Position numbers and translations under genes: made by a program. Below the pieces are notes generated by a model. The model had not been told where the DNA came from and ran no database searches. It saw only the letters and a list, made by a program, of their open reading frames with translations. Shown piece after piece: positions 5,547 to 61,719 of a DNA stretch of 64,000 nucleotides (its first letter is position 1; every line of letters begins with the position of its first letter). Origin of the DNA: Nitrosospira briensis. Lineage in GTDB: Bacteria > Pseudomonadota > Gammaproteobacteria > Burkholderiales > Nitrosomonadaceae. The stretch lies in the NCBI RefSeq assembly GCF_900115125.1, contig NZ_FOVJ01000001.1, positions 839,852 to 903,851 on the forward strand, in the 5' to 3' direction.

Positions 5547-6089
5547 ATGATAGGAAAAATTGTAACGCTCGCTGCGGTTGCCGCAGGCGGAGTCATGTTA
5601 TCCAAAAAGATGAAAAAAAATCGTGATTCGGGGACTTCAACAATCGAAGATTCGATCGAAGTTAATGTGCCTATCAGCACGGCATACAATCAATGGACTC
5701 AATTTGAAGATTTTCCCAAGTTCATGAAAGGAGTAATCGAAGTGCGGCAGCTGGATGACACCCATGTGCACTGGCGGGCGGAAATTGGCGGCAAGGAAGA
5801 ACAATGGGACGCAGAGATCACGGAGCAGATCCCGGATACGCGTATTGCCTGGCGGAGCACGAGCGGCGCTAAAAACGAGGGAATCGTCAAGTTCTACAAG
5901 ATCTCCGATTCCGTAACCCGTATCGTGTTGCAAATGGATTACGGCCCCAAAGGCTTCGTTGAAGAAGTCGGCGATGCACTGGGAATAGTAAAGATGCGTG
6001 CCAGTGGAGACCTGAAGCGTTTCAAGGATTTCATCGAGAACCGCGGGCACGAAACCGGCGAGTGGCGGGGTTCGGTCCCTCAGCACTAG
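5547..6089 (+). CDS. SRPBCC family protein (polyketide cyclase/dehydrase-like) with N-terminal membrane anchor
   Basis: 180 residues from the ATG at 5547, chosen because GGAGG lies 9 bases upstream. An N-terminal hydrophobic stretch (MIGKIVTLAAVAAGGVML) is followed by a basic cluster and then an SRPBCC fold: EVNVPISTAYNQWTQFEDFPKFMKGVIEV, HWRAEIGGKEEQWDAEI, RIAWRSTSG and the C-terminal helix GDLKRFKDFIE. Such proteins bind hydrophobic ligands; the ligand here is unknown. The gene stands alone after a long leader. Proteins of this shape are common stress-associated membrane-anchored proteins in proteobacteria. Confidence 0.85.
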   Translation: MIGKIVTLAAVAAGGVMLSKKMKKNRDSGTSTIEDSIEVNVPISTAYNQWTQFEDFPKFMKGVIEVRQLDDTHVHWRAEIGGKEEQWDAEITEQIPDTRIAWRSTSGAKNEGIVKFYKISDSVTRIVLQMDYGPKGFVEEVGDALGIVKMRASGDLKRFKDFIENRGHETGEWRGSVPQH

Positions 6090-12783: not shown

Positions 12784-12942
12784 TATTGACATTGACCAGA
12801 GTTGCTGAAAGGACACGATCCCGCTGCTCTTGGTTCAGGATAGGCGGATTTCCGGAAAAATCAATTATCCAGGTGACTCAATGAAATGGGCTCCTCTCTC
12901 CGGCACCCAAGTGCGCCAGACTCCAGAGGTAGTAGAGGCAGG

Positions 12943-13106
12943 TCGGGTTAGCGCAGCGTAAGCCGACAGCCTCGAGTCCAATTCGCCCAGTTATTCATGC
13001 CCCACCCCTTCAAATTGATCCTGTATCTCACTGACTGATCCTGTATCTCACTGCTTGATCCTGTATTTCACTAACTGATCTTGCCGATTACGCTGTGCTA
13101 ACCCGA
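12943..13106. repeat. Inverted pair of REP-like palindromes enclosing a 20-bp tandem repeat
   Basis: The left palindrome (12943-12966) has TCGGGTTA and TAAGCCGA around GCGCAGCG; the right (13084-13106) is the same family in inverted orientation (CCGATTACGC ... GCTAACCCGA). GCAGGT-type bases flank both outer ends. Between them lie three 20-bp direct repeats, TGATCCTGTATCTCACTGAC and variants (13016-13035, 13036-13055, 13056-13075), plus a partial fourth unit. The layout resembles a BIME or a small REP-derived MITE. Confidence 0.7.
13016..13083. repeat. 20-bp tandem repeat, 3.4 copies
   Basis: Units begin TGATCCTGTAT and end CTCACTGAC, CTCACTGCT or TTCACTAAC, with a fourth partial TGATCTTG. 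The near identity suggests recent slippage. It lies in the leader region between PEP-CTERM and tyrosinase genes, upstream of the predicted tyrosinase promoter. Confidence 0.8.
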
Positions 13107-13177
13107 CCAACCTGCTTTTCCTGAAAAGCATCGGTTTTTTACTCCTGTTTTTTCGCGCAACCCGTTCGGAGTTATCC

Positions 13178-13387: not shown

Positions 13388-16300
13388 ATGGGTGTTAGAA
13401 AAAATGCGGCCCGTCTCACGCCAACAGAGAGAGACAATTTCCTGAGAGCGCTTCTGACACTCAAACATACCATTGCCAATCCAGGTGATCCTGCCGCTCA
13501 ACAGATTAGCGTATACGATCAATTTGTGGCGCTTCACCTCTATACCCTGTCTGTCAATGTTCCAGGAGGAGGAGCAATCAATATGGGGCACCAGAACTCT
13601 GGATTTGGCCCCTGGCACCGGTATTACTTGCTGCGATTCGAGCAGTCGCTCCAAGCGGTAGACCCGACTGTTACCCTGCCATATTGGGATTGGACAGACC
13701 ATGCCGCAACAGAGAACATAATTTTCCAAGACAATTTCATGGGCCCAAATGGCGGAGCCGGCGGTGTGGGCGGCGGCACGGTTCGATCCGGTTATTTTGC
13801 TTTCGACAGGCCGGGATCAGGCACAAATCCAACCCCGCTGCCCGCTTGGTGGCCGGGTGGTCCGGCTGGCCTTCCGGGTTGGCGTGTGAAAACTCAGTTA
13901 CAACAGGGGCATGGCAATACACTCAGACGTAGTTTTGATGCTTTTACCGCTTTGGAAACCAAAGCTGATGTGCAGACTTGCCTGTCGAGACCGAATTATG
14001 AGAACCCGAACGGTTTCAGACCTTTTTTAGAGGGCGGCGGCGTGTTTCAAATGCACAACGGCATGCACAGCTGGGTGGGCGGAAATATGGGTGATCCTAA
14101 TTCATCTCCGAATGATCCGATCTTTTTTATGCATCACTGCAACATAGACCGTTTGTGGGCCATGTGGCAGATTGACGGACACCAAGGGAACGCGTTCTAT
14201 CCGGCGGCAGGCAGACCTGAGGGCCACAATCTTAATGATCCGATGTGGCCTTGGGTGGGCGGTCTGGGCGGATATTCATCCAACAACGCACAGACGAACA
14301 TCGTTTTACCAGACTTTACGGCGGAATCCATTCGTCATCCGGCGGATGTTCTGGACCATCGCGCTTTAGGGGTGGCTCATGATACAGAGGTAATTCTGGG
14401 TATTGCTCTCGATCAGACGGGAAGCATGAACGGAATGACTCCTGATCCGATGACGGGCATGGCCCCCAATATCACCAAATGGGAAGCCGCCAAGCGCGGT
14501 GTCGCCGCCCTACTGCACGATTGTGAAACCGCTTATGCGGCGGCGGAGGCTTATGTGGTGGGGGGGGTGGAGACCTTTAGATCCGCCGGCGGCGGTAATA
14601 CCTTTACCCAGATCTTTCCCGGTGCGAATTTTGGCGTGATAAAAAATGGCGGAGCCATCAGCCAAAGTAATTTCGAAACCAACATAGCCGCCCAATCGCC
14701 AGCAGGCGGCACACCGTTAGCGGGCGCTTTAACAGATACCGACATTAATCTAGTACGTGCCCCCTTCGTGAATCTGCCTGCTGGCGAGCAACGCTACCTG
14801 TCCATTTTAACGGATGGGATGGCAACGGCCCCGCCGCCTCTGTCCAGCCTGGGAACTCCCGCTTTCCCGGACACGGTCATCTTTGCGATGGGCTTTGGCA
14901 TCGGGGGCGGATGGGACGGAGTGGACTATGCGACCATTGCTGACATGGCGACAAAAGGGAAAACAGCCCCCCTAGGAGTGTCTCAAGTCTATCATGGGGA
15001 AAATGCAGGAGCCATTGATAAGTTTTACACGAATTCAATTGCCGCCTCTCTTGGCTATACTCCATCGGTTGATCCGGTTTTCGATCTCTATCCAGGCGAA
15101 CACGTCCATTTTCGTTTCGACGTGACCAGCGCCGAAGACGCGTACATGATTACGGCTCAGGGGTTCGATTTCCTGGATGGAAACTGGGATTACTGCCTGA
15201 TGGCACCAAGTGGAATGCATTGTGCCGATACTCGCATGGAAGGAAATATGGGAGTGCCTGCCGGTAGCGGGCACAGTCACGGTAGCCCCACCGAAACACT
15301 TGCGCCCTTCCTGGTCACCATGAAACAACACCAGGGGCGCTGCACCATTTTCCTTAATCGCAACGGAGCAGACACTCACGACTGGGTGGGTCGTTGGCAT
15401 TTCATGGCTTATTACAAAGCGGATCCCGCCGAGCCGTTAATGGTCATGCCCAGTCTCTCGGATTTTGTCCTGCCCGCCGGTGCGCCTCCGGTGCGCGGAG
15501 CGCTTTACTCAAGGTTTTCACAAAAGCCCACGGAACGGCTACCGGTGCGTGCTATCGCAGGCCGCCCAGCGCATCAGCTGGCGACAGGATTAAACGGTAT
15601 CAGCACAAATTCTCCGGAACCTCCCTGCGCAGTCTCGATCAACATTTTCAAGCGAACGAGCCGTCGAGCCAGCTTGACAGCAACAGCCAAAGCACCATTT
15701 GCCGGGGAAGACATTATCTTAACGCTGCAGTTGTCCGATGCATCGGGCGGCAGACAGGATGTGCATACGCTCGTCGCCCGCTTGGTGGCACCTAACCACG
15801 CTTTAGGGAATGCGGTGGCCGATCTCAAAACTGTGCCCGTAAAAGCCAGACGACAATTCATCAATAGAGAAAATACCGAAGATCCCTTCGATTTACTGCA
15901 ATATCTGGCGGAGTACGAACGGCTCAAACCGGGGGCATTTGCTATCAGGGACGAAGAGATTGAATTCAAGCAAAAAGATGACAGTACTTGGATTGCCCGT
16001 ATCAAGCGTAATGCGTTTCCGGGTGTATATCGCATCGCTCTCTACGTTGAGGGAATTTATTATTCGAAGGGGGAAAAACCTGAGAACGATAGGAAGAAGG
16101 GAAAAGAAGGGGGACGACACAGTCACCGTTGCTGCGAACTCGGACCTCAGAGATTTACGGAATCCCTTCACACTGAAATCGCTCTCGGGATCAAGCCGGA
16201 TGAAAAACAGAGCCGTGCGGAATTGCATTGGACAGATCCCGATAAATTTGTCGTCAGCGCTACGCTCATTGATGCAGGCGGTAATATCGCCTTACCGACA

Positions 16301-16687
16301 GCCGGCCACGTCCCTGTCGTTAGGGTCGGTGGAAAAGCTATTCATGCGAAGACCTTGAGTTCGCTTACCGCCGAATATTTAATGGAGGTCACGCTAATTG
16401 GGAAAAATATTGAAATCGCCCCGGGGGGACAAACCGTCAAAAGTGGCGATGTTGTTGTTGAAGCTGTGGATGGAGAGCGTGTGCCCATCAAGCAGAATAC
16501 AAATCTCAGCGTCGGTGTCGAGATTTCGGGCAACAAGCTGAAGGTTGATATACCCGAACTTATAGGGGACAGGGAAACGCGCAAAGTCTTTCCCGCAGGG
16601 ACGCAGGAAGCAATGAAGATAGCAATGGAAAATCGCCAATCCTTTGCCTCTACACAGGAGGCAAAGGATTCAGGTTTCCAACTCTAA
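13388..16687 (+). CDS. Tyrosinase fused to a von Willebrand factor A-like domain
   Basis: 1099 residues from ATG 13388 (GAGAGGA upstream). Residues 1-300 form a type-3 copper tyrosinase domain: CuA ligands His50, His68 and His77 (in GHQNSGFGPWHRYYLLRFE), then LPYWDWTDH; CuB ligands His223 and His227 (MHNGMHSW) and His249/250 in DPIFFMHHCNIDRLWAMWQ. It should oxidise phenols or catechols to quinones. From about residue 335 a VWA-like domain begins, ILGIALDQTGSMNG, a DxTGS variant of the MIDAS, reaching about 550. A beta-rich C-terminal region of unknown kind follows, with a His-rich GHSHG and a GGRHSHRCCELG stretch near residue 910. No signal peptide is visible. It is unusual for its length and domain pairing. 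Confidence 0.88.
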   Translation: MGVRKNAARLTPTERDNFLRALLTLKHTIANPGDPAAQQISVYDQFVALHLYTLSVNVPGGGAINMGHQNSGFGPWHRYYLLRFEQSLQAVDPTVTLPYWDWTDHAATENIIFQDNFMGPNGGAGGVGGGTVRSGYFAFDRPGSGTNPTPLPAWWPGGPAGLPGWRVKTQLQQGHGNTLRRSFDAFTALETKADVQTCLSRPNYENPNGFRPFLEGGGVFQMHNGMHSWVGGNMGDPNSSPNDPIFFMHHCNIDRLWAMWQIDGHQGNAFYPAAGRPEGHNLNDPMWPWVGGLGGYSSNNAQTNIVLPDFTAESIRHPADVLDHRALGVAHDTEVILGIALDQTGSMNGMTPDPMTGMAPNITKWEAAKRGVAALLHDCETAYAAAEAYVVGGVETFRSAGGGNTFTQIFPGANFGVIKNGGAISQSNFETNIAAQSPAGGTPLAGALTDTDINLVRAPFVNLPAGEQRYLSILTDGMATAPPPLSSLGTPAFPDTVIFAMGFGIGGGWDGVDYATIADMATKGKTAPLGVSQVYHGENAGAIDKFYTNSIAASLGYTPSVDPVFDLYPGEHVHFRFDVTSAEDAYMITAQGFDFLDGNWDYCLMAPSGMHCADTRMEGNMGVPAGSGHSHGSPTETLAPFLVTMKQHQGRCTIFLNRNGADTHDWVGRWHFMAYYKADPAEPLMVMPSLSDFVLPAGAPPVRGALYSRFSQKPTERLPVRAIAGRPAHQLATGLNGISTNSPEPPCAVSINIFKRTSRRASLTATAKAPFAGEDIILTLQLSDASGGRQDVHTLVARLVAPNHALGNAVADLKTVPVKARRQFINRENTEDPFDLLQYLAEYERLKPGAFAIRDEEIEFKQKDDSTWIARIKRNAFPGVYRIALYVEGIYYSKGEKPENDRKKGKEGGRHSHRCCELGPQRFTESLHTEIALGIKPDEKQSRAELHWTDPDKFVVSATLIDAGGNIALPTAGHVPVVRVGGKAIHAKTLSSLTAEYLMEVTLIGKNIEIAPGGQTVKSGDVVVEAVDGERVPIKQNTNLSVGVEISGNKLKVDIPELIGDRETRKVFPAGTQEAMKIAMENRQSFASTQEAKDSGFQL
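16638..16670. terminator. Perfect 12-bp hairpin over the 3' end of the tyrosinase gene
   Basis: Arms AATCCTTTGCCT (16638-16649) and AGGCAAAGGATT (16659-16670) pair without mismatch around a 9-base loop; the stop codon follows at 16685. There is no T run, so it is either a bidirectional processing or stability hairpin for two convergent transcripts or a Rho-independent-like stop without a tail. Confidence 0.5.
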
Positions 16688-16806
16688 GGAAAAACTGGAT
16701 CGCAGTGCTTGGTAAACCATGTCCTGATCAAACCTCCGGCTGATTGCAAAATCAGCATCTCCCAAGCCGTCCACGGAAACGACGTGCGAGCGATAAGCAG
16801 TTGGCT

Positions 16807-17970
16807 TCAGAAGGACACTCCCTGGCTTGCCAGCGTGGCATTTTCTGCCTTCTCCGATGAGAGTGCCAATGGCGGAAAACTTCCGAACCTCTTCCTTCTG
16901 GCTCCCCGCTCGACCACTGTTATGAAAACGTAATCCGGCTTGTAAACCTCCACCAGCCGGGCGAACACCTCCGGATGCGCCGCGTCGTAGTGAAGCTGCA
17001 CTGTTTCGCTGAAGGTGGCGGCCATAAAAGGGGCAATTGCGGTCCCGAATGAGTCCCGCAGCCACAAAACTCTCTTTTGATTCAAGGCATTTTTCGACTT
17101 GACAAGCAGAGGGCGCTGAGCAGTATGAATCTCGGGATTCCCGCCAGACCGCTTGAGGCGGCCGGTTTCAAAATCATATTGCGCGGTTTCAACCGGCAAC
17201 TCACTCTTGATATCAATGGCGACCTCGTCATCCCGCAAAATTTCTTTCAGCCTCAGGAATTTCGCCAGGTCTCCGCCCTGGCGTTCATTTACATTCGATA
17301 TGCGCACATCCTGCTCGGTCAGCCAGCGCAAGTCCGTTTCCGTACGGGCAATCTCCGTCTGGAAGGCCTGAAAAGCGACCCAGGCACCGAGGCTATTCCA
17401 GTGTGTGTCCGTTTTGTAGTACAGCGATTCCGAAAACCGGGATTTTGCCGCGCGCAAGGCAGTTCGGGTGTCAATATAAAGCCCCTGGCTGACATTCTTC
17501 AATAAGGTATCAGTTGCAGACTCGGTAGCAGGCTGTGCCCAGCCGGGAAGAAACTCGGGGTAGATGGTTGTCTTGTCCGGGCTCAGCATGACCCTGAACT
17601 TACTCACCCCCTTCTGACTTAACCATTCGCTCCAAGAATTCGTTGCTTGCCCGATTATCCTGGCCACCTCCGCGTCCTCGACAGTCGCCCCACGGCGATT
17701 TCTGGAAATCGTATTGTCGTACTGCTCTCCGAGGTAGAGCCAATCGTCCTTTCCTATCAACACCTGATCGGGATTGGTGGAAATTCCGTGGGGATAAAAA
17801 AACCGGTTCAGGAGGGCCGACGCAAAATCAAGGTTGTAGAGCGTGGAGTCTCTCCACCATTCCAGTTCGGTGTTCTTTTTTTGTCCATCTCCCATATTCA
17901 GGTTGATTGCCGGAACAACCGCCAGCACAAACAGGGCCACCCAGACAAACATAAATACTCTTTTTTTCAT
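16807..17970 (-). CDS. AlgJ/AlgX-type SGNH polysaccharide O-acetyltransferase
   Basis: 387 residues. An N-terminal membrane anchor or signal (VFMFVWVALFVLAVVPAINL) precedes a periplasmic SGNH-like domain: GKDDWLYLGEQYDN, FRVMLSPDKTTIYPEFLPGW, the DTHWNSLGAW motif (catalytic Asp-His) and WLRDSFGTAIAPF (nucleophile Ser), in the order seen in AlgJ/AlgX. It takes an acetyl group from the MBOAT partner and transfers it to a cell-surface polysaccharide. It starts 9 bases after the MBOAT gene, forming an operon. No polymer synthesis genes are nearby, so the acceptor is unknown. Confidence 0.88.
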   Translation of the reverse strand: MKKRVFMFVWVALFVLAVVPAINLNMGDGQKKNTELEWWRDSTLYNLDFASALLNRFFYPHGISTNPDQVLIGKDDWLYLGEQYDNTISRNRRGATVEDAEVARIIGQATNSWSEWLSQKGVSKFRVMLSPDKTTIYPEFLPGWAQPATESATDTLLKNVSQGLYIDTRTALRAAKSRFSESLYYKTDTHWNSLGAWVAFQAFQTEIARTETDLRWLTEQDVRISNVNERQGGDLAKFLRLKEILRDDEVAIDIKSELPVETAQYDFETGRLKRSGGNPEIHTAQRPLLVKSKNALNQKRVLWLRDSFGTAIAPFMAATFSETVQLHYDAAHPEVFARLVEVYKPDYVFITVVERGARRKRFGSFPPLALSSEKAENATLASQGVSF

Positions 17971-20040: not shown

Positions 20041-22599
20041 ATGACTGCCAGTAAACCCCAAACCACCGACTTTACCAAAGATGTGCTGGGCCGCTACATC
20101 AACAATGGAATGGATGAAGCATTGAACAGCACCGATAAAAATGGACAGCGGCCGGATGGCTCCCCGACCAGTGACGCCCGGCCCTTTGATGTAATCGTGA
20201 TTGGTGGCGGCAGCTTCGGACCCGTGTTCGCACAGCATTTATTTTCGACCGATCATACCCACAGTCACCGCATCCTGGTGCTGGATTCCGGCTCGCTGCT
20301 GCTCACCGAGCATGTGCAAAACTACCCGCCTATCGGGCTCGGGGTGCCGCCGCCTACTGAAAACGATCCGTTCCGGCTTCGCGCCGAAGTCTGGGGATTG
20401 CCCTGGCGCGCAGATCCTGCAAAAGTGCCGCAGGGCTTTCCCGGATTGGCCTATTGCCTGGGAGGGCGCTCGCTCTATTTTGGCGGCTGGTCCCCACGAT
20501 TACTGGATACCGGCACCGACACGGAAATGCCACGGGACCGGTGGCCCGACAGCGTTGTGACAGAGTTGAATGACAAGTATTTTGCGGAGGCTGCGCAACA
20601 AATCGGTACTGACCAGACGAACGATTTTATAAGTGGTCCCATGCATGATGCCCTACGCAAGCATTTATTCGACGGCATCGAGGCTGACGAGGTCCCTGAA
20701 GCGATCAAGCCAGCCGAACTTCCTTTGCACCTGGATCTGCCCCCCGGCATACCAGCCGCAATGAAAGAGCAGCTCAAACTGGAAGCTCCCTTGGCCGTTA
20801 AAAGCCGTGAGGGCTCGGGATTGTTTCCTTTCAACAAATTCAGCGCCATGCCTCTGGTCATCAAGGCGTCGCGCGCCGCTTCCACCGAGTCCATGCACGC
20901 CGTTGGCTATCCCGACAACGTCAAGAAGCGATTCATGGTAGTGCCGCACTGCCGCGTAATCCGTCTTGTCACGAATATCCAGGATGGGCTTGGCCGCGTG
21001 ACCGGCGTGGAATGCGAAATCTATGTGCCCATCTGTGGCGACGACTCCAACGTTCAAAAGCAGCGTTTGACGATTCCCGTGGCCGACACCGCCAATGTCG
21101 TTATCGCGCTGGGCACGATAGAAAGTGCCCGGCTTGCACTGCTCTCCTTCCAGGGGATCAGGAATTACGACAGGATCGGCAAAAACCTGATGGCGCACCT
21201 GCGCTCCAACCTCACCATCAGCATTCCCCGTACCTCCTTGTCCAGCCTCAGCCCAGCCGTGAAAGTACTGCAGGCGTCTGCACTGTTCGTGAAGGGCAGG
21301 CATACCTTTTCCGATGGGTCGGGCGAGGGCTATTTTCACTTGCAGATCACTGCGGCGGGTCTCGATAAACTTACCTCGGACTCCGAGGCCGAACTCTTCA
21401 AGAAAATTCCCGATCTGGACAGCATGCTACCCCTGCATCAGGTGAACGATCATACGATAGTCATCACCATACGTGGCATCGGCGAAACCCAGGAACAGAA
21501 TCCGGGCAGCAACATCACGTTGAAAAATGACGAAACCGACGAGGTCGGCGTGCAGCGTGCCCTGGTGACCTACAATCTCAGTGGCAACGACTTCGAACTG
21601 TGGGACGCAATGGATAAGGCTTCCGACGATGTTGCCAGGGTGTTCGCTGGTGGAAACAGCTTCACTGTCTTCACGGCGCCCGATCGTCCTCAGACGGTTG
21701 CACCGACGGCGGACTTGAGCCTGATTGTTCCCTATAAGCCGGTCTGGGAAGGGGGACGCCGCGACGGCATGGGCACCACGCATCACGAGGCAGGACCGCT
21801 CAACATGGGCGATGATCCGGACACTTCCGTCACCAATGCCGATGCACGGTTTCACTTTCTCGAAAACGCATATGTCGCAGGACCCGCCCTGTTCCCGACA
21901 GTCGGCTCGCCCAATCCCATGCTCACAGGAGTTGCGCTGGCACGCCGTCTCGCTGATCGGCTTACCGTTGCGCCATTTAAAGCGGACGCGGGATTCAACC
22001 TGCTTTTCGATGGCGCAGACGCGAGTAAATGGCGTATGTCGACCATCACGAATCAGGCCAATAATTTTCCCGGCGGACGCCTTGTGGTGAATGGCGCCCT
22101 GGAATCGGTGCCCGGCAATGACATCGGCATGTTCTGGCACACCGACCCGACCCCTCATGATTTCGTGCTTAAACTGGAATGGTTACGCTGGCGCGAAGAT
22201 GACAATTCCGGGGTATTCATCCGCTTTCCGCACCCCGACAGTAAAAATTACAACAACACCGCCTACGTCGCGGTTAATTTTGGTTTCGAGATCCAGATCG
22301 ACCAGCTCGCCCGCCCCGATGGCTCACCGCTGAGCAAGACTGGCGCGATCTATGGCTTTGCCCCACCGGACGACCCAAACAACCTCCCGGTAAAACCTGT
22401 GGGCGAATGGAATGAATTCGAGATTCATGTCCAGGGGCAAAATTACATCGTGTTCCTCAATGGTGTAAAAATCACCGAGTACGATAACCCGGACACGGCG
22501 CGGGGCCAGCCGAGCACGGGAAGCAACCCAAGTTTTATCGGCCTGCAAACCCATACTGGACGGGTAGCTTTCCGCAAAATCCAGATCAGAGCGCTTTAA
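20041..22599 (+). CDS. GMC-type oxidoreductase fused to a DUF1080 (3-keto-disaccharide hydrolase-like) domain
   Basis: 852 residues; GAGGAG is 7 bases before the ATG. The FAD-binding Rossmann motif DVIVIGGGSFGPVFAQHL is near residues 50-67. A GMC C-terminal region follows with GMGTTHHEAGPLNMG (active-site His) and AYVAGPALFPTVGSPNPMLTGVALARRLAD. From about residue 655 a second domain begins, FNLLFDGADASKWRM, continuing LEWLRWREDDNSGVFIRF and EWNEFEIHVQGQNYIVFLNG, the concanavalin-like DUF1080 fold found in 3-keto-glycoside hydrolases. The fusion suggests oxidation of a sugar to a keto-sugar and cleavage by one polypeptide (inference). No signal peptide is visible. Confidence 0.88.
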   Translation: MTASKPQTTDFTKDVLGRYINNGMDEALNSTDKNGQRPDGSPTSDARPFDVIVIGGGSFGPVFAQHLFSTDHTHSHRILVLDSGSLLLTEHVQNYPPIGLGVPPPTENDPFRLRAEVWGLPWRADPAKVPQGFPGLAYCLGGRSLYFGGWSPRLLDTGTDTEMPRDRWPDSVVTELNDKYFAEAAQQIGTDQTNDFISGPMHDALRKHLFDGIEADEVPEAIKPAELPLHLDLPPGIPAAMKEQLKLEAPLAVKSREGSGLFPFNKFSAMPLVIKASRAASTESMHAVGYPDNVKKRFMVVPHCRVIRLVTNIQDGLGRVTGVECEIYVPICGDDSNVQKQRLTIPVADTANVVIALGTIESARLALLSFQGIRNYDRIGKNLMAHLRSNLTISIPRTSLSSLSPAVKVLQASALFVKGRHTFSDGSGEGYFHLQITAAGLDKLTSDSEAELFKKIPDLDSMLPLHQVNDHTIVITIRGIGETQEQNPGSNITLKNDETDEVGVQRALVTYNLSGNDFELWDAMDKASDDVARVFAGGNSFTVFTAPDRPQTVAPTADLSLIVPYKPVWEGGRRDGMGTTHHEAGPLNMGDDPDTSVTNADARFHFLENAYVAGPALFPTVGSPNPMLTGVALARRLADRLTVAPFKADAGFNLLFDGADASKWRMSTITNQANNFPGGRLVVNGALESVPGNDIGMFWHTDPTPHDFVLKLEWLRWREDDNSGVFIRFPHPDSKNYNNTAYVAVNFGFEIQIDQLARPDGSPLSKTGAIYGFAPPDDPNNLPVKPVGEWNEFEIHVQGQNYIVFLNGVKITEYDNPDTARGQPSTGSNPSFIGLQTHTGRVAFRKIQIRAL

Positions 22600-33667: not shown

Positions 33668-36130
33668 TCAGCCTTCGTCATCGTCATCCTCTTCATGATC
33701 ATGGCCCTCATCTTCGCAACAGGCGTCGATACCCTGGGCACTGCAGGATTCGTCATGGTGTTTCCCGCCACAACCCCTGCGGCAATCGTCACAATTTTTA
33801 CACCCGCAATCGCTCCAGATCGTGTAGGCCATGACATCGAGAGTTTTCACGGGAGTTTCCGGGTCATCGCTCGTGATAACCAGTTCGCAGGACCTCGGGC
33901 ACTTTTCCGTCGCCTTATATCGAATCAGGACGCTCAGGCACGAACCGGGGAAAAGCGTCGCCGGGAAAGGATTGTTAACTAGCTTCCAGTGCCTGCTTTT
34001 GCGCTTGAATGCAACGCTTGTCACGTATAGTTTGCATTCGCCTGCATTGCAGATGGAGATGGTGCGCTCGCCAAGACAGCATGCCGTCACGCCGCCGATG
34101 CATGTAGAGCCTGTGACGACGAGTTTGCCGAAGGGCGCATTCCCGGAAACTGAAATGTTCTTTTCGCCTGCCGGATCGTCACTTATGATCGTGATCATGC
34201 CCCCCTTTGCACCGAAGCCAGTCGGTTCAAACCGGACGGGTATCTGCAGGGAGCCGCCAGCTTCTATGGCAATTGGATATGCCAGCACGTTGGGGGCGAG
34301 AAACTCGGCAGAGGACGAAGTGATGCTGGTTATTGTCAGGGTGCAACGGCCACTATTGCTTAAAGTTATCATCTGATCTACAAAAGACCCGACGCAGGCG
34401 TTACCGAAATTGCCTGCATTAGCGATTATTGCAACCAACCTTGGTGCCCTTGCTCTACCTGATACCTCCACGGATTTCGAACCGCTTGAATCGTTACTGA
34501 ACACGGTAATAGTCTCTGCCTTTGGGCCAAGACTATTCGGCTGGAATCGGATCGGTACTTCAATGGCGTTCCCCGCTTCGATGGTAAGGGGATATGACAA
34601 AACGCCCGGAACGAGAAACTCGGCAGCATCGGAAGAGGTAATATTGGTTACAGTGAGCATGTTGCCGCCGCTATTGCTCAAGGTCAGAACCATATCCTTG
34701 AAGGACCCGATGCATACTTCGCCAAAGTTACCGCTATCTGCGATTATCGTGACCAGTCTCGGTAGAATAGTTTCAATTATCAAACGCAAGTCCGGCATCA
34801 CACCGATGTTGCCAGGCACTCCCCCGCCCTGAGCAGTACCCGTAGCGCGGTCCGACAACAGGGCACGCATCTCGAGGGGCGACAGAGGTTCGCCTGTGTT
34901 TGCCCTATATATGCCCTGAACAATAAGTGCCGCTCCTGAAATAATAGGAGATGCCGAGCTGGTGCCATTAAAGGTACTTGTATACGTCCTGGTGTTATCA
35001 CCGCCGCCGCCATCGAGATCTCCATAACCTGCGGTTACAACATTTTCACCCCAGCCATAACAGTCGACGCGACTGCCAAAATTCGAAAAACCGGCGCGAT
35101 TGTGAGGCAAAGGTGAAAGAGCGGCGCCCACCATAATTGCCCCTGATTCCATAAAATCAGCACTCCCTCGACTGAGCACGAATTTCCCGGCGCCATCTGT
35201 GTAGCTGTCCAGATCAAAAGAACCATTTCCCGCTGCTTCCACCACAACGATTCCAAGAGCGACGGCGAGCCGTATTGCGTCGAGATCTGCGACATCGGTT
35301 TCGGTAGGTAAAAGACCTTTCTGAATCTCCAGCAATAATACGTCACCGACCTGCAGCGTCGGCAAAGCTCCTGCGATCGCGTCAGCCACGTTTCCTGATG
35401 AGCTGCTGGCAGTATCCCAGTGACTTGTCACATTAACGGACGATACCGATGGGGCGATTCCGACAACACCAACCGTATTATCGTCAGCAATAACTTCGCC
35501 AAGAACCGCAGTTCCATGATTACCAACATACCCATCAATGCCGTCGCGGTTATCACCGTATAGAAGAGCCGGCAATTTACTTGCAAAATCCTCGTGATTC
35601 AAAAACCAGCCTTGTTCCAGATCAACAAATCCGACACCTGCACCTTCGCCGTTCGGTTGTGTCCAGGCCCAGCGCGCGTCTATTCCAACGGGAGCCGCAT
35701 CCTGGTAGTTTTGATTGGCATTATAAGGATCGTCAGCCGGGTTAACCGCAGGATCCGTAGCCTCCAATTCGCGATATGCAACTTCCACTTCATCGAGAGC
35801 ACTGAAACGTTTTACGATCTCTTCTGATTTTTCAGGGCAATGGCGAACATCGAGTTTCCAGTAAGAAGTGAGGCTATGTAATGGCGGCAGTTCGGTTTGA
35901 GCCGCCTGTTTTTCAAGTTCACGTATCTTTTCCGGTAGCAACGCACGTATCGCTGGCCGTGTTTCTTTGATTTCATACAAATCAAGCAGTTTCTCAATCC
36001 CATGCAATTTGCACTCAGCGGCAAATGATCGCAATGTTGTCATCGACTCACTTGCAGGAGCGGTTTCCTGTGCCATTCGAATAACAATAAAACCGCTATA
36101 GCGAGGGGGATAGACGTTTCCTGTTTCCAT
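33668..36130 (-). CDS. S8 (subtilisin-type) peptidase with repeated immunoglobulin-like domains and metal-binding-like tail
   Basis: 820 residues; AGGAG is 7 bases before the ATG. Catalytic triad: Asp170 (VGFVDLEQGW), His205 (GNHGTAVLG) and Ser391 (GTSSASPI), with Asn302 as the oxyanion residue (AAGNGS). From about residue 450 come two copies of a 100-residue choice-of-anchor D (ASH/HYDIN-like) unit, each with ADSGNFGEVCIGSF or similar, then LSNSG and a SxDPxG ending. The C-terminus is rich in Cys, His and acid: CGCKNCDDCRRGCGGKHH ... CCEDEGHDHEEDDDDEG. No signal peptide is visible, so the site of action is unclear. Confidence 0.87.
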   Translation of the reverse strand: METGNVYPPRYSGFIVIRMAQETAPASESMTTLRSFAAECKLHGIEKLLDLYEIKETRPAIRALLPEKIRELEKQAAQTELPPLHSLTSYWKLDVRHCPEKSEEIVKRFSALDEVEVAYRELEATDPAVNPADDPYNANQNYQDAAPVGIDARWAWTQPNGEGAGVGFVDLEQGWFLNHEDFASKLPALLYGDNRDGIDGYVGNHGTAVLGEVIADDNTVGVVGIAPSVSSVNVTSHWDTASSSSGNVADAIAGALPTLQVGDVLLLEIQKGLLPTETDVADLDAIRLAVALGIVVVEAAGNGSFDLDSYTDGAGKFVLSRGSADFMESGAIMVGAALSPLPHNRAGFSNFGSRVDCYGWGENVVTAGYGDLDGGGGDNTRTYTSTFNGTSSASPIISGAALIVQGIYRANTGEPLSPLEMRALLSDRATGTAQGGGVPGNIGVMPDLRLIIETILPRLVTIIADSGNFGEVCIGSFKDMVLTLSNSGGNMLTVTNITSSDAAEFLVPGVLSYPLTIEAGNAIEVPIRFQPNSLGPKAETITVFSNDSSGSKSVEVSGRARAPRLVAIIANAGNFGNACVGSFVDQMITLSNSGRCTLTITSITSSSAEFLAPNVLAYPIAIEAGGSLQIPVRFEPTGFGAKGGMITIISDDPAGEKNISVSGNAPFGKLVVTGSTCIGGVTACCLGERTISICNAGECKLYVTSVAFKRKSRHWKLVNNPFPATLFPGSCLSVLIRYKATEKCPRSCELVITSDDPETPVKTLDVMAYTIWSDCGCKNCDDCRRGCGGKHHDESCSAQGIDACCEDEGHDHEEDDDDEG

Positions 36131-55900: not shown

Positions 55901-56108
55901 GAGATTTGGCTTTCGGCTTTACAGGATTGTTGCCGGCAATGCGCGCCTTAAGGTACGCGTGAACCTCATCGACATCAAAGCCTTTGCCGGTACTTAACAT
56001 TCCTTCCCGTGCTGCTTGAGCTTCAATTACGAAGCTGGCACGCGATTCAGCTGCCGTAGCTGCTCTTTCGTTTGCAATTGACCCTGAATCGCAGCATCTT
56101 ACTCTCAC
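55890..56108 (-). CDS. ParD-like antitoxin
   Basis: 72 residues as a frame; the true start may lie at a downstream codon. The stretch ASFVIEAQAAREGMLSTGKGF then DVDEVHAYLKARIAGNN is like antitoxins that pair with ParE-type toxins. It is followed without gap by the broken toxin. The N-terminus (IANERAATAAESR) repeats DNA found at 56179, so the 5' end may have been rebuilt by an insertion. Confidence 0.55.
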   Translation of the reverse strand: MRVRCCDSGSIANERAATAAESRASFVIEAQAAREGMLSTGKGFDVDEVHAYLKARIAGNNPVKPKAKSRQG

Positions 56109-56193
56109 ACTGGCCGCTCATCTTCTTATTGGCACCTCCCCAAAAAATGACCTATTGCGGGAATGCCAGTTTGCAGCCCTTTCGTTTGCAATT
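56065..56193. repeat. 15-bp direct repeat at the edge of the foreign region
   Basis: CTTTCGTTTGCAATT occurs at 56065-56079 and 56179-56193, 114 bases apart and both within the 3' and 5' ends of coding frames (IANERAA in each). It sits at the border between GC-rich and AT-rich DNA. Confidence 0.6.
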
Positions 56194-57074
56194 TGCCGCC
56201 CTCGGAGGTGACAATTTACGCCCTCTGGTAACGTCCCTCTCACAGGGTGAATTGCAGAATTTTCAGATCCTGCGGTAGGGCGGGGCAGCAGTTGAAACGA
56301 ATCCACATCTATTGGAGCTATTGGAAAGGCCGAATCCTCTGGAACCGTCCATGTCTCCAGCTTACCCCCAAAACTTCCGCAGTCTGATTTTCCAACGACC
56401 ACTTGGAAACGAGTTTCTGGATTGGGAGGGTGAAAGATAGCAAGTAATTCTATGGTAAAAGGGTCAGAGTAAGCCATGAATAGAGGAGTGCCTCTCGGTC
56501 TCGGGATGGCAACATAAAATATTTGAAATGATCTGGTGCCATAGAAAAGGTGAAAAGTGGCTTGCGTCGTCGGGTTAAGCAAAGGAACCGTAACGCCAGG
56601 ATAGTCACGATAGTGAATGCCCCAGCTTCTCCGGAAATCGGTAGGTGAATCTTGCGATGCAATTCCTTCACTAGAAAATATTACATCGTAAAAAAAATGA
56701 AGCTCCCTTCCATCTTCTGTATGTTTCGGTGAATAAAAGGGCATGGATGAACGATGGCAGTCTAGAGCGACATTTCTGTATTTCGGTGTCTCTAGCACGG
56801 ATCCATCCTGAAAAGCATACAGCGAGAACTCCGTTAGAAGATTAACAACAATACCCATTCTATAATTCTGTGGAGTAGCCGGAAGAGGAATGCCTTCCGG
56901 GCTGTCATCGTGTACGACGTTTACTGCCCATTCCCACCAGGGGAAATCTATAAATATATTATTTTGAAGTTCGGCTAACATTGGTGGGCAGTGTAGTGGT
57001 TCTCCCCCCCCCCGAGGATACCTGATATCATGAATAATCTCCTGCCTACCACTCAGGTCAATATAAACTCCCAT
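56118..57074 (-). CDS. Hypothetical 318-residue protein, coupled to the AT-rich gene
   Basis: Not recognised. It begins 3 bases after the stop of the 887-residue gene, so both are translated together. The first 280 residues are beta-rich and aromatic (ELQNNIFIDFPWWEWAVNVV, RSSMPFYSPKHTEDGRELHF, FHLFYGTRSFQIFYVAIPRP) without signal peptide. The last 35 residues (GVNCHLRGRQIANERAANWH and on) run through a repeat shared with the antitoxin gene, which suggests that its original stop was lost. Function unknown. Confidence 0.65.
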   Translation of the reverse strand: MGVYIDLSGRQEIIHDIRYPRGGGEPLHCPPMLAELQNNIFIDFPWWEWAVNVVHDDSPEGIPLPATPQNYRMGIVVNLLTEFSLYAFQDGSVLETPKYRNVALDCHRSSMPFYSPKHTEDGRELHFFYDVIFSSEGIASQDSPTDFRRSWGIHYRDYPGVTVPLLNPTTQATFHLFYGTRSFQIFYVAIPRPRGTPLFMAYSDPFTIELLAIFHPPNPETRFQVVVGKSDCGSFGGKLETWTVPEDSAFPIAPIDVDSFQLLPRPTAGSENSAIHPVRGTLPEGVNCHLRGRQIANERAANWHSRNRSFFGEVPIRR

Positions 57075-57077
57075 ACC

Positions 57078-59741
57078 TTAACCGTTTAAACCTTTTTGCA
57101 TTCCGGTTACTGGGTCATACTCTACCTCAACAGCTACTACCTGATCTGTAGGTAAAATTTCTACCCATTGGTCAAAAATTTCAAAATGACCCGAGGTTTG
57201 TAATTTAAAACCTCCCTGGAGAGGATAAAAACCATGTTCATAAACCTTATCAATAGGAGTTGAGGAAACCTTATTGTCATCATTTATTTCCTCATTTTTA
57301 GGATGTAATTCCACCTTGTTACCTGCCGCATGTTTTTCCCTTACTTTTTCTGCAAGTATAGTTAGTGCTTCCCAAATTGTTTTTCCTTGTAATTCTTCCT
57401 CATCTCCCGTGTAAAAATCATTTTCAGTTAAACCCTCCCCACTTTCTGTATGTTTAAGCCAGTTTAAGGCAGCTTGTTCTTTACCAGGACGAATTGGAAT
57501 TACTGCCTTAACCCATGGAGCATTCAAAAAGGCATTCCTTAAATTATCGCCATCAAGCTGCAATAACCAACCTAAAGAGCTTCCCAACTTTGCCGGTTCC
57601 GATTCTTCAGTAATATTGTAATTTGAATCCCTTATTGCCCCTCCCCAGGAAGCGAATGATCTATTTAATGTAGATAAAAATCCCGAAGAAAAACTCTGAG
57701 TAGTCAATTTAGGTTTCCACCAGTCGGGTGCTACAAAATAAAGCATTTTGTCGATATCGAATATAGAGTTGATTAATTCAGCGATGATGTGCTGGGTCGA
57801 AGTGCTCGTACTATAATCAGGGCTGTTTGTGCTTTCTATCAAGGATTTAATTAAATTTCTATAAACAATGATCCTTTCCTCTTCCCTTAATTCCTCAAAC
57901 TTCCTGCTCTCGATTCTGCTTGCAAAATTTACCCTTTCTTTTAATCCGTCAACAAATGCCTGTTTAGTTAATTGATCAACTTTATTGTCGTAGGCTGTAA
58001 TGGCAGCATCATTAGCAGATATTATCTTTTGTTTCAACGCCTTAGATGGCATCCAGGAAGCTTTAAAGCTTACTGGAATTTCATTCTGATTGTTAAAATT
58101 CACCATCTCTAACTGGATGGTTATATTGTTGTCCTCAGAAATTTGAATAACGGAGAGATCGCAAAGGTTATTATTTGTAGAGACTACATATATCTTGTTT
58201 AACAGATAATCTGTTTGTGGAGGGTTTATAGAATAATTTTGTATGTGCTTAATCCTGTCATTACCCACATAGGTATCTCCCGACTGATCCTCTTCAACGC
58301 CATTAATGTATGTGCGATCTTTTCTTAATCCAAATTCGTTAGGATCTGCATTAATAGGCTCAAATCTAATTTGAAGGGTAACATCAGAAAACAATTCCGC
58401 AGGCATTGGAGCAATTTCTGCCGGAGCAATGCTATCTAAATCTGCGGGTGCAGCTAAATGGATGAGATTTGCGAGCCCTAGCCCCAATCCTGGGTTATCC
58501 ACATAAGTTTGCCAACACAGGTAAGTCCCGATGTCCTGTACCTGAACCCCCACCTGACGCATCTTTCTTCTTAGCTCATAATTGATCAAGTTATTAGTTG
58601 AATTTTTGAGCGTATATTTTTTTGAAGAGGTAGCGGTCTCTTCCGAAACACTCTTAAAAGTAGATTTGAAGTTCTTTTTAATTTCTGAAGATAATTTTTC
58701 AGTCTGCTCCCGCATTCTCTTATGAGAGGTTTCTTTGGAAATTTCCTGCGTAGTATTAAAATCTAAGCTTCCTGTAGCATTGGCACTGCCAGTAGCCCAA
58801 GATTGATTTACTGATGCTGTAAAACCCAATTTCAAATCTTGTTTATTGTTTTCCTGAACTGCCTCAGATATTTCATCCTTTTCCGTTAGACTGCTTTCAG
58901 ATTTAATTATCGTCTCAGATGCCTGCTCTAAAGTTTTCTCTATTACGGTTTTTCTTGTATGGATTTCTATAAGCACTGCTTCTGCCCCCGGGCTTAACCA
59001 GATATGCTCCACTGCAGGACCGAGAAAGGTTTCAAATTCAAAGAAGTATTGCCTGAAGAGATGCACTATTCCAACTGGTGACAGAGAAATTTTATGTAAA
59101 TCTTTTTGGGGATCAAAAAAATCTAAAGGGTCATTTAAACGATCCGAAGGAGTGAAGATTGGTTTTTTGGGGGTTTTAAATATTTTATAGAGTGAATCAA
59201 AAGCTTTTTGTGAGGCCAGGAAAACAAGTAGGCCTGCGACTTTGGATTCATAATTCAGGATCTTTCCATATTTTTCCTGAAGCATTTGCTGACGTAAATT
59301 ATGATTACCCAAGAACTTGCAGTCTTGTGTAAAGGCTGACCTTAATGTATTACTTAATTCCTGCTCCAATAAAATATCGATATTTTCTTTATTGATAACA
59401 CTTTCCCAATCGGAGGTTTCATTAAAAGATTTAACTTTATCGGCTAAAGCATTTAATAATAGGCTTCCATATCCATAATTTTCCTTGCTCAAATTACTGT
59501 CAATACTGCCCGCTTTCCATTCCCTCAGATTAATACTGCAAGTAGCAAGATCTAGATCATAATTCGTGGAAGATTGGATCTGATCTAGGGATTTGTTAAA
59601 ACTCTTTATCCTTTCATCTTGAATGCCCGCATTGAATTTAGCTTTTTTTCTTTCTGACTTCCATCCGAGCAAGGGCTGGTAAACCCCAAAAATTTCGCTT
59701 GAATAAGGTAAGCTTCCGACAAATTTATCTTTGATTTTCAT
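57078..59741 (-). CDS. AT-rich gene for an 887-residue protein of unknown function
   Basis: Clearly foreign: rich in A and T, Lys/Asn/Ile codons and no good ribosome site (TTTTTTAAAT before the ATG), unlike every neighbour. The protein has no signal peptide. Segments include LGPAVEHIWLSPGAEAVLIE, a coiled coil (about residues 270-300, EKTLEQASETIIKSESSL), a Ser/Thr/Asn-rich stretch, a second helical block (KETSHKRMREQTEKLSSEIK), then LRRKMRQVGVQVQDIGTYLC, and a C-terminal beta-rich end VAVEVEYDPVTGMQKGLNG. No catalytic motif seen. Upstream DNA has a Bacteroidota-like flavour (AT-rich, near TAnnTTTG). It is followed by the coupled 318-residue gene. Confidence 0.8.
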   Translation of the reverse strand: MKIKDKFVGSLPYSSEIFGVYQPLLGWKSERKKAKFNAGIQDERIKSFNKSLDQIQSSTNYDLDLATCSINLREWKAGSIDSNLSKENYGYGSLLLNALADKVKSFNETSDWESVINKENIDILLEQELSNTLRSAFTQDCKFLGNHNLRQQMLQEKYGKILNYESKVAGLLVFLASQKAFDSLYKIFKTPKKPIFTPSDRLNDPLDFFDPQKDLHKISLSPVGIVHLFRQYFFEFETFLGPAVEHIWLSPGAEAVLIEIHTRKTVIEKTLEQASETIIKSESSLTEKDEISEAVQENNKQDLKLGFTASVNQSWATGSANATGSLDFNTTQEISKETSHKRMREQTEKLSSEIKKNFKSTFKSVSEETATSSKKYTLKNSTNNLINYELRRKMRQVGVQVQDIGTYLCWQTYVDNPGLGLGLANLIHLAAPADLDSIAPAEIAPMPAELFSDVTLQIRFEPINADPNEFGLRKDRTYINGVEEDQSGDTYVGNDRIKHIQNYSINPPQTDYLLNKIYVVSTNNNLCDLSVIQISEDNNITIQLEMVNFNNQNEIPVSFKASWMPSKALKQKIISANDAAITAYDNKVDQLTKQAFVDGLKERVNFASRIESRKFEELREEERIIVYRNLIKSLIESTNSPDYSTSTSTQHIIAELINSIFDIDKMLYFVAPDWWKPKLTTQSFSSGFLSTLNRSFASWGGAIRDSNYNITEESEPAKLGSSLGWLLQLDGDNLRNAFLNAPWVKAVIPIRPGKEQAALNWLKHTESGEGLTENDFYTGDEEELQGKTIWEALTILAEKVREKHAAGNKVELHPKNEEINDDNKVSSTPIDKVYEHGFYPLQGGFKLQTSGHFEIFDQWVEILPTDQVVAVEVEYDPVTGMQKGLNG

Positions 59742-60009
59742 ATTTAAAAAAGATAAGTTTTATAAATAAAAAATCCGATGAAGAAAAGAAGCTAATTAAA
59801 AAATTCACTTCATTATCATTACGGCGCTCAGGAAAAACGGTATCTAATTCAAAGATTATTAAATGAAATTGATATAACTAAACATTTTCTTTAGGTATTT
59901 TTTATAGCATATTTATAGAAAACCGCACTAAGCCCCTTTGGAGTTGCCCCTATTAAACCGGATAGGATGCGGTTAGTAATTGGCTGCCCTTGATCCGCTT
60001 GGATCGATT
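59742..60009. other. AT-rich intergenic region upstream of the 887-residue gene
   Basis: No gene. The strong AT bias continues from the gene; a promoter for the 887/318 pair should lie here but none is certain. Confidence 0.4.
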
Positions 60010-61719
60010 TCAGCAGGGTACCCAGGAACAGGCCCGCCAAGTAGGATTAGTGACGTCTGGTCCGACAGACCCTGTTCCCCAAAGATGATCGCTTTCCGTC
60101 GAGCCTGTAGCGTCACCTAAGTAGTAAGCGCCCGCCCAGATTTCTCCTGGCTGTATCTCCTGCGCAGTGCGAAACCACGACTGGATAATCGTTGAGCCGG
60201 CCTTCGCATATTGGGCCAAACGTTGCCCTTCCTCTTCGTTATCGAAAGTTACCTGGCCATACCCCATCAATATATGTAATCCATCAAACGCATTCCGCCA
60301 CCTTTCAAGTACATTCCCGCCACTCCCAACCACATCATCTTGTAGCGGCCCACAAGCGGCAACCACGGCCCATTCAAGATTCTTGGTACCCCAAAGATCA
60401 GGGGCACCAGCGGTTTCCGTAAAATGTAGAAAAGTATCATCGGGTGCAGCAAATACCCACCCGTCACTGTTCGCATGTCCTGTGTAGAAAACAAAATCAA
60501 CTGCATCGACCCACTCGTCATTAAATTCGCGCCAATCTGATTCCCATGCGTTCGCGTCGCCCCAATTGAAACGGATACTCCATCCCGCCGCGGCTAATTC
60601 ATCAACAAAACCCTGCGCATTGTTCTGACTCCCCGCCAGACCGCCCGATAGGCCTATCCAGGAAGTACCCGCAGAATAAAAACCTAAAAGATTGCCAAGT
60701 TCCTTCAGTTTGATTACGGGGAAATTGGGATTGAGTATGAGGGGGCCGTTGAGGGATTCAATGGTAAATACATCGGTAAACTTCAGGCCGGCTTGTCGAA
60801 GCAAGCGACGGTTTATTGCAATGCCCGGGGGAAGCGGCCGGCCGGGCACTGGTTGGAAGTCAGCGGGCAGCGGGCGTATGAAAGGCCTTGCATTCTGAGT
60901 TCTCGTGGGTTGCAATGGCTGCGATGCAGGAACAGTTACTTCCGTTGCAGGAATAATTATTTTCCGTAATGGAACACGATTGCCTTCGAAGTCAGCAACC
61001 GCGCTGTACACATAAACCGGATAGAGGAGATTCTGCTCTGAAAATGCAGGTGCCGCGAAATAAGCGAGTTCGGATGAAAACTCGGCAATCTTCATGGAAG
61101 CGGTCATTGCTCGAAATGTCTGGTCGGCTTTTGTTTGCTCCACAACTTCCTGCAACTCCGGCTCGCCAGTCACCGGACGCCAAACGCCCCGAAGCCCCAG
61201 AAGTCGCCCGCCTTCGCCAAATGCAACGCCGAACCGGCCCCCTCCGCCAACTAAGGGGAGAACTTTACCACCTACCCCAAATTCGCTAACATCGATCTCA
61301 ACATCCATTAAAATTGTGATGTCTTCCTGAAACACTTGCCGATCCATCATATTCTTTGTGGCAATAACGGTCGTTGTCCCGCTCGTCCGGGTTTTCAACC
61401 GGAAGGGACCGGTCAGTTGCGGTAAGACTCCGTACTTGGTAAGTAGCCCATAACTTGATCGTTCGGCATCGGCAGCACTTATAAGCTCTCGTTTTTTCGA
61501 ATTGACACCGGCAAACCGCCATAATCGACTTAAGTCCGCCGCCCAAACACCGCCTCGAGCAACATCAATCTCAATGCTTCCGCTCTTGCTGGTCAGCTCA
61601 ATTCGAGTACCCCGCTCAAGCATTTCATAATCTGCTCTGGGAAAGAGAAGCTTGCCGAGATCGTGAATGTGCTCCGCGGGAGCGACAGTGCTGGCTACTG
61701 GGAATATTGGAAGTTTCAT
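60010..61719 (-). CDS. Caspase-fold (DUF6345-like) protein, predicted cysteine peptidase
   Basis: 569 residues from ATG 61719, with AAGGAGG before it. The C-terminal 220 residues show the clan CD (caspase/gingipain) order: FIGLSGGLAG at the start, DFVFYTGHANSDGW with the catalytic-type His (about 415), and NLEWAVVAACGPLQ with the Cys (about 456), followed by LHILMGYGQVTF. This matches the family often called DUF6345. The N-terminal half is beta-rich (TSKSGSIEIDVARGGVWAAD) with no membrane segment or signal peptide. It could cleave a partner encoded nearby; substrate unknown. Same strand and spacing as the lipoprotein and 887-residue genes. Confidence 0.75.
   Translation of the reverse strand: MKLPIFPVASTVAPAEHIHDLGKLLFPRADYEMLERGTRIELTSKSGSIEIDVARGGVWAADLSRLWRFAGVNSKKRELISAADAERSSYGLLTKYGVLPQLTGPFRLKTRTSGTTTVIATKNMMDRQVFQEDITILMDVEIDVSEFGVGGKVLPLVGGGGRFGVAFGEGGRLLGLRGVWRPVTGEPELQEVVEQTKADQTFRAMTASMKIAEFSSELAYFAAPAFSEQNLLYPVYVYSAVADFEGNRVPLRKIIIPATEVTVPASQPLQPTRTQNARPFIRPLPADFQPVPGRPLPPGIAINRRLLRQAGLKFTDVFTIESLNGPLILNPNFPVIKLKELGNLLGFYSAGTSWIGLSGGLAGSQNNAQGFVDELAAAGWSIRFNWGDANAWESDWREFNDEWVDAVDFVFYTGHANSDGWVFAAPDDTFLHFTETAGAPDLWGTKNLEWAVVAACGPLQDDVVGSGGNVLERWRNAFDGLHILMGYGQVTFDNEEEGQRLAQYAKAGSTIIQSWFRTAQEIQPGEIWAGAYYLGDATGSTESDHLWGTGSVGPDVTNPTWRACSWVPC

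Follow-up and report, generated by a model that had tools for sequence, protein, structure and literature searches.

A gene in the window (the whole 64,000-nucleotide stretch of DNA analyzed here) encodes a single protein of 1,099 residues in which a predicted tyrosinase head is joined to a likely VWA domain and further beta-rich regions. The best explanation for this architecture, to which we assign a probability of roughly 0.5, is a tyrosinase tethered by a VWA stalk. A type-3 copper phenol/catechol oxidase head would be held on a stalk of VWA and beta-rich modules, the VWA domain would bind a partner or surface via its divalent-metal MIDAS, and the site of binding would decide where the oxidase makes quinones, i.e., cross-links or melanin-like polymer. 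For the stalk we infer a tethering role, and the ligand that it would bind, the substrate of the head and the site of action, in or outside the cell, belong to the same inferred part of the model. Three architectures are on record for bacterial tyrosinases, namely the enzyme alone, the enzyme with a caddie and the enzyme with a lid at its C-terminus (PMC9454253); a VWA stalk attached to the head would make a fourth. No description of a tyrosinase-VWA fusion or of a head-swapping stalk family was found in the open-access literature searched. In molluscs, separate tyrosinases and VWA proteins build the shell matrix (PMC5597905); with both in one chain, the present protein would allow targeted cross-linking by oxidation to be modeled, and tested, in a single protein.

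Tyrosinase head, VWA domain and C-terminal part

The original prediction of a tyrosinase fused to a VWA-like domain in a protein of about 1100 residues was borne out by the single open reading frame, by Pfam and by profile comparison (Table 1). Translation from ATG 13388 is supported by an RBS-like sequence, GAGAGGAAA, directly 5' of this codon, and by a homologue in Echinicola pacifica that is collinear from the same Met. The mechanically called ORF begins at TTG 13364, and its extra eight residues have no counterpart in the Echinicola homologue. The latter has the same domain order, shares 41% identity with the window protein, and is collinear with it over 900 residues.

Pfam identified the head as a tyrosinase (PF00264; E 4e-46, 158.4 bits vs. 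a gathering cut-off of 22.6), and phmmer matched B. megaterium-type tyrosinase across residues 10-297 (E 1e-43), such enzymes being its closest single-domain structural relatives by sequence. All six copper ligands that had been predicted were present (CuA H50, H68 and H77; CuB H223, H227 and H250, including the HxxxH motif; numbered from 13388), and these histidines, far from being lost in most homologues, recur without change in each of the five aligned tyrosinase-VWA proteins. The head also contains a waterkeeper-type E215, the Glu before HisB1, and N224, the Asn after HisB1. In its catalytic domain, six His, HisB1-Asn and preceding Glu it is like the tyrosinases of Bacillus megaterium and the Streptomyces MelC2 type, but those are enzymes of ~30 kDa that have no stalk, and with the MelC2 equivalog model NF047834 the window protein scored 174.9 bits, below the cut-off of 450. 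By these features the head is a type-3 copper phenol/catechol oxidase, of which the activity is predicted.

Pfam gave no VWA match in the window protein, residues 323-564 remaining blank even at E 10, and a VWA profile was therefore constructed from 30 domains of relatives that match PF00092. Comparison of the window and Echinicola sequences with these 30 domains by hhalign covered the whole VWA domain, with a probability of 97.7-98.4% and E 2e-12. Using hmmsearch, the same profile detected the Echinicola protein at E 1.4e-7 and the window protein at 0.03, which exceeded 600 of 600 shuffles; a chance resemblance was ruled out by these shuffles and by the profile-profile comparison. The MIDAS is complete in the window protein (D342-x-T344-x-S346, T442 and D476), and its five residues align with DxSxS...T...D across nine fusions, among which the Thr in place of the first Ser (DxTGS) is peculiar to the window and Echinicola proteins. 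This DxTGS variant is the one that had been noted originally. AlphaFold models built from two sequences had a pLDDT of 36 for the VWA domain alone and 27 for the full protein. When the former was submitted to Foldseek, nearly all of the 50 listed matches were VWA/I-domains, the top one being the VWA domain of CLCA1, at E values of 5e-3 or above and a TM of ~0.3. Because the Foldseek matches were weak, we grade a VWA fold at residues 334-548 as likely rather than established. The VWA domain that had been placed after residue 335 is supported by the profiles, whereas the structure prediction itself (pLDDT 27-36) was uninformative.

Table 1. Positions of features in the window and of small MelC1-like ORFs in other loci
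Feature	Position	Strand	Basis or context
REP-type inverted pair, GGTCGGGTTAGCGCAGCGTAA ... TTACGCTGTGCTAACCCGACC	12936..13113	.	left edge of inserted segment
Three 20-bp repeats	13015-13083		left edge, with REP pair
Tyrosinase-VWA fusion gene, 1,099 aa	13388..16687	+	ORF list; ATG start
Predicted tyrosinase head, residues 1-325	13388..14362	+	Pfam match at residues 41-261
Likely VWA domain, residues 334-548	14387..15031	+	hhalign vs. VWA profile; MIDAS residues align across nine fusions
Post-VWA beta-rich region, residues 560-690	15065..15457	+	hhalign; MAFFT alignment
His-rich loop 1, residues 610-640, SGHSHGS	15215..15307	+	alignment with Echinicola
Ig-like/beta-rich region, residues 745-935, fold putative	15620..16192	+	collinear with Echinicola
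His/Cys loop 2, residues 900-921, GRHSHRCC	16085..16150	+	alignment with Echinicola
C-terminal extension, residues 936-1099	16193..16684	+	absent from Echinicola; no family match
RAYT-type (REP-associated) transposase remnant	16690..16846	-	right edge, just behind stop codon
Small MelC1-like ORF	L052, about 5662-5930	-	before tyrosinase
Small MelC1-like ORFs	L104:7964-8218; L106:7780-7980; L107:2897-3178; L110:1248-1499		before tyrosinases whose C-terminal modules vary

The His-rich and Cys-Cys stretches reported for the C-terminal part were found at two sites, and the same two alignment positions are also rich in His and Cys in the Echinicola protein, with different letters (HQHNGHESCNHCC at loop 1 and DHCCDDKHNH at loop 2). 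A scan of genome contigs with the C-terminal part recovered Echinicola pacifica as its sole relative, and no further match was detected in the sampled genomes of the phylum to which the window belongs (398), of the Echinicola phylum (395) or of the Echinicola family (196). For residues 630-1099, no homology was demonstrated outside Echinicola. No match was obtained when the two-sequence alignment of the C-terminal part was searched as a profile against the PDB, and the part of the Haloarcula relative (see below) that corresponds to residues 745-935 scored with FixH at E 9e-4, below the cut-off. Scans of viral contigs with the window/Echinicola alignments and the VWA alignment found nothing, as did phage searches.

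Related VWA stalks with other catalytic heads

The search for the same architecture elsewhere, which had been proposed as a check, found it again in Echinicola pacifica and revealed tyrosinase heads on more distantly related VWA stalks in other genomes. One congener (G019) encodes an 879-residue protein (L048) that combines a tyrosinase head with a VWA domain scoring above the Pfam cut-off. From residue 232 onward, L048 is 36% identical to an M64-peptidase-VWA protein of other congeners (L089) over a stalk of 632 residues (E 1e-110), and the heads of the two proteins are unrelated; judged from this alignment, the pair is a clean head swap on one stalk. In a third congener protein (L090) the VWA stalk bears a trypsin-like head, and in Caballeronia insecticola an M14 carboxypeptidase head occupies a VWA stalk encoded on a plasmid or secondary replicon (L105). 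Tyrosinase-headed stalks are likewise found on plasmids or secondary replicons of Microvirga ossetica (WP_099514959.1) and of the archaeon Haloarcula sp. JP-L23 (QIO24726.1). These two proteins and L048, which are annotated merely as tyrosinase or VWA protein, resemble the window protein in having a tyrosinase head followed by a VWA domain and beta-rich stalk and no signal peptide, but differ from it in that a linker domain precedes the VWA domain, the C-terminus is a conserved tail containing Cys, and a caddie-like ORF lies upstream of the gene.

A profile of ten stalks aligned with the window and Echinicola sequences at residues 436-612 (hhalign E 2e-10, score 86 vs. a shuffle maximum of 24). 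This alignment runs from the VWA domain into the next region, so that ~175 residues are common. The post-VWA part alone also matched the stalk profile (hhalign E 5e-5, score 42 vs. 24 for column shuffles); pairwise against L048, with one sequence on a side, it gave no significant match, and significance was reached only with the stalk profile. The N-terminal section of this part (DPVFDLYPGEH...LMAPSG) is common to the M64, M14 and tyrosinase stalks, and, judged by eye, the MAFFT alignment also brings a later GRW..Y motif into register. The VWA and post-VWA stalk of the M64-, M14- and trypsin-VWA fusions (L085-L091, L105) is homologous to that of the window protein, with peptidases as heads. 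Between head and VWA domain, L048 and the M64 fusions contain a linker domain, whereas the window and Echinicola heads lead almost directly into the VWA domain. When tails were compared, the conserved Cys-containing C-terminal tail of the stalk family was not found in the window protein. By these comparisons, the window gene belongs to a larger head-swapping VWA stalk family, within which it forms a divergent branch. The M64, trypsin-like and M14 fusions (L085-L089, L091, L090, L105) are signal-less, and many stalks end in (L/C)xxLxxCL...GIDxxxLxxCL.

In small trees, the window and Echinicola heads formed their own clade, with a support of 0.999, apart from the head of L048. Because this clade is separate and the L048 stalk groups with the M64 stalks, tyrosinase appears to have been joined to stalks of this type at least twice. 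At least two separate head lineages, together with the occurrence in an archaeon, suggest that the combination is useful, and the related stalks that carry other enzymes in bacteria and one archaeon point to an "enzyme on a stalk" design in which the parts can be exchanged. A general carrier could come to light through the swaps between tyrosinase and peptidase heads. CLCA proteins are animal proteins that consist of a metalloprotease head, a VWA domain and a beta-sandwich; they share the general plan of catalytic head, VWA domain and beta modules with the window protein, but their catalytic head differs.

Tyrosinases with other additions were also observed. A tyrosinase of the same genome as the window carries two PPC domains, and the tyrosinases of Methylobacter and of a Streptomyces plasmid have repeat-type C-termini; in both types, as in the fusions, modules have been added at the C-terminus of a tyrosinase. 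The repeated C-terminal modules of two tyrosinases (L107:3180-4991 and L110:1501-3243) look, by eye, like bacterial lectin-type propeller repeats.

Copper handling and cellular location

In G019, Microvirga and Haloarcula, an ORF of 66-93 residues lies directly before the gene for the tyrosinase-stalk protein, and ORFs of the same type precede the tyrosinases of Methylobacter, the Streptomyces plasmid and the PPC type of the window's own genome. Compared with three Streptomyces MelC1 proteins, these ORFs gave a hhalign E of 7e-6 (score 37 vs. a shuffle maximum of 15); those of them that were tested matched no Pfam family, and they lack the Tat signal sequence that Streptomyces MelC1 has. No such ORF was found upstream of the window gene. 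In G019, a gene for a 1,267-residue galactose/glyoxal-oxidase-like copper radical oxidase (L099:10788-14591, minus strand) immediately precedes the caddie-like ORF and the tyrosinase-VWA gene.

The main rival to a tether is a C-terminal part of 770 residues that would serve mainly as a built-in caddie or lid, with copper loaded via the His/Cys loops and the active site shielded until cleavage, as the beta-rich C-terminal domain does in the pro-tyrosinases of Verrucomicrobium spinosum or Burkholderia thailandensis. The upstream MelC1-like ORF that relatives have and the window gene lacks is in its favor, as are the His/Cys-rich loops conserved in position in Echinicola, and bacterial zymogen tyrosinases with a beta-rich C-terminal domain, like that of the window protein, are known (PMC9454253). 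However, the lids of the Verrucomicrobium and Burkholderia enzymes are of ~17 kDa, with no VWA domain described, vs. a C-terminal part of ~80 kDa here, whose VWA domain has all MIDAS residues, a site that would be needless for a lid. Furthermore, no caddie-like segment scored in the window protein when it was checked for a hidden caddie, and the same stalk type carries peptidases, which need no copper caddie. We consider a caddie or lid as the main function rather unlikely. As a guess, the two loops might take over copper handling.

In a bolder reading, one VWA stalk would serve bacteria and archaea alike as a general carrier, on which copper oxidases and several unrelated peptidases are exchanged; signal-less and in many cases provided with a Cys tail, it would use an unrecognised delivery route, and the window protein would be a divergent member whose own His/Cys loops replace caddie and tail. 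As a whole, this scheme seems unlikely.

A hydropathy check, which is not a trained predictor, found no signal peptide in the window protein or in any other fusion examined. The strongest point against a tethered oxidase is therefore that no route outward is visible. For this reason a surface location is putative, as is the cross-linking role. The same observation would fit a cytoplasmic enzyme in which VWA domain and stalk build a multi-subunit complex (MoxR/VWA-like logic), e.g., for phenol detoxification or intracellular melanin, as would the MelC1-like partners of the relatives, without the Tat signal of their Streptomyces counterpart. However, no MoxR or AAA gene adjoins the fusions examined, and the M64, M14 and trypsin-like heads found on the same stalk type belong to peptidase families that are typically extracellular and digestive, leaving a cytoplasmic complex quite improbable.

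Insertion and origin of the gene

The tyrosinase-VWA gene was present in none of the 22 congeners. Tyrosinase matches as such occurred in all 22, typically 2-5 per genome, while in the sample of its own phylum only 27 of 398 genomes had any tyrosinase match. The segment that holds the gene is bordered by REP elements and a RAYT-type remnant (Table 1), and at the same site congener G019 has REP palindromes and a longer, frameshifted RAYT-type transposase; the closest congeners have only a short spacer between the PEP-CTERM region and AlgX. The GC3 of the gene is 0.54, vs. 0.64-0.66 in five nearby genes; two other genes of the window are also low. Its absence from the 22 congeners, its insertion at a RAYT/REP scar and its GC3 argue for horizontal gain, and by these signs the gene is a recent acquisition, foreign in GC3, at a decayed RAYT-transposase/REP scar.

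It had been suggested that the protein might act jointly with the nearby O-acetylation pair in maturing a surface matrix. The AlgX/MBOAT pair is retained in eight congeners that lack the tyrosinase-VWA gene, which is a late insertion and convergent with AlgX; these observations give no support for such cooperation, and a linkage to the pair was rejected on synteny. The idea of a recently transferred passenger with no role in its host and heading for decay, which would suit its occurrence in one genome of the genus, its GC3 and scar and an 83-residue tyrosinase remnant elsewhere in that genome (G000:C10:1074157), is highly doubtful, since its 1,099-codon frame is intact and all copper and MIDAS residues are kept at 41% identity to Echinicola, implying long selection in the lineage.

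Several ORF fragments beside the Echinicola tyrosinase-VWA gene (L007:13993-21149) are RHS-core-like by eye; one was tested and had no Pfam match. The relatives of the window genome, its size and its REP/PEP-CTERM content resemble those of Nitrosospira-like ammonia oxidisers; an AmoA search of this assembly gave no match, but the control genomes gave none either. Elsewhere in the window, a low-GC region (36-43%) at 56000-61000 contains an ORF of 887 residues without a Pfam match (57078-59741, minus strand), and a 3-keto-disaccharide hydrolase domain and the C-terminal domain of a GMC oxidoreductase share one ORF of 852 residues at 20041-22599. At 33668-36130, Ig domains of the HYDIN/ASPM type follow an S8 peptidase, and the GC3 there (0.51) is low like that of the tyrosinase-VWA gene.
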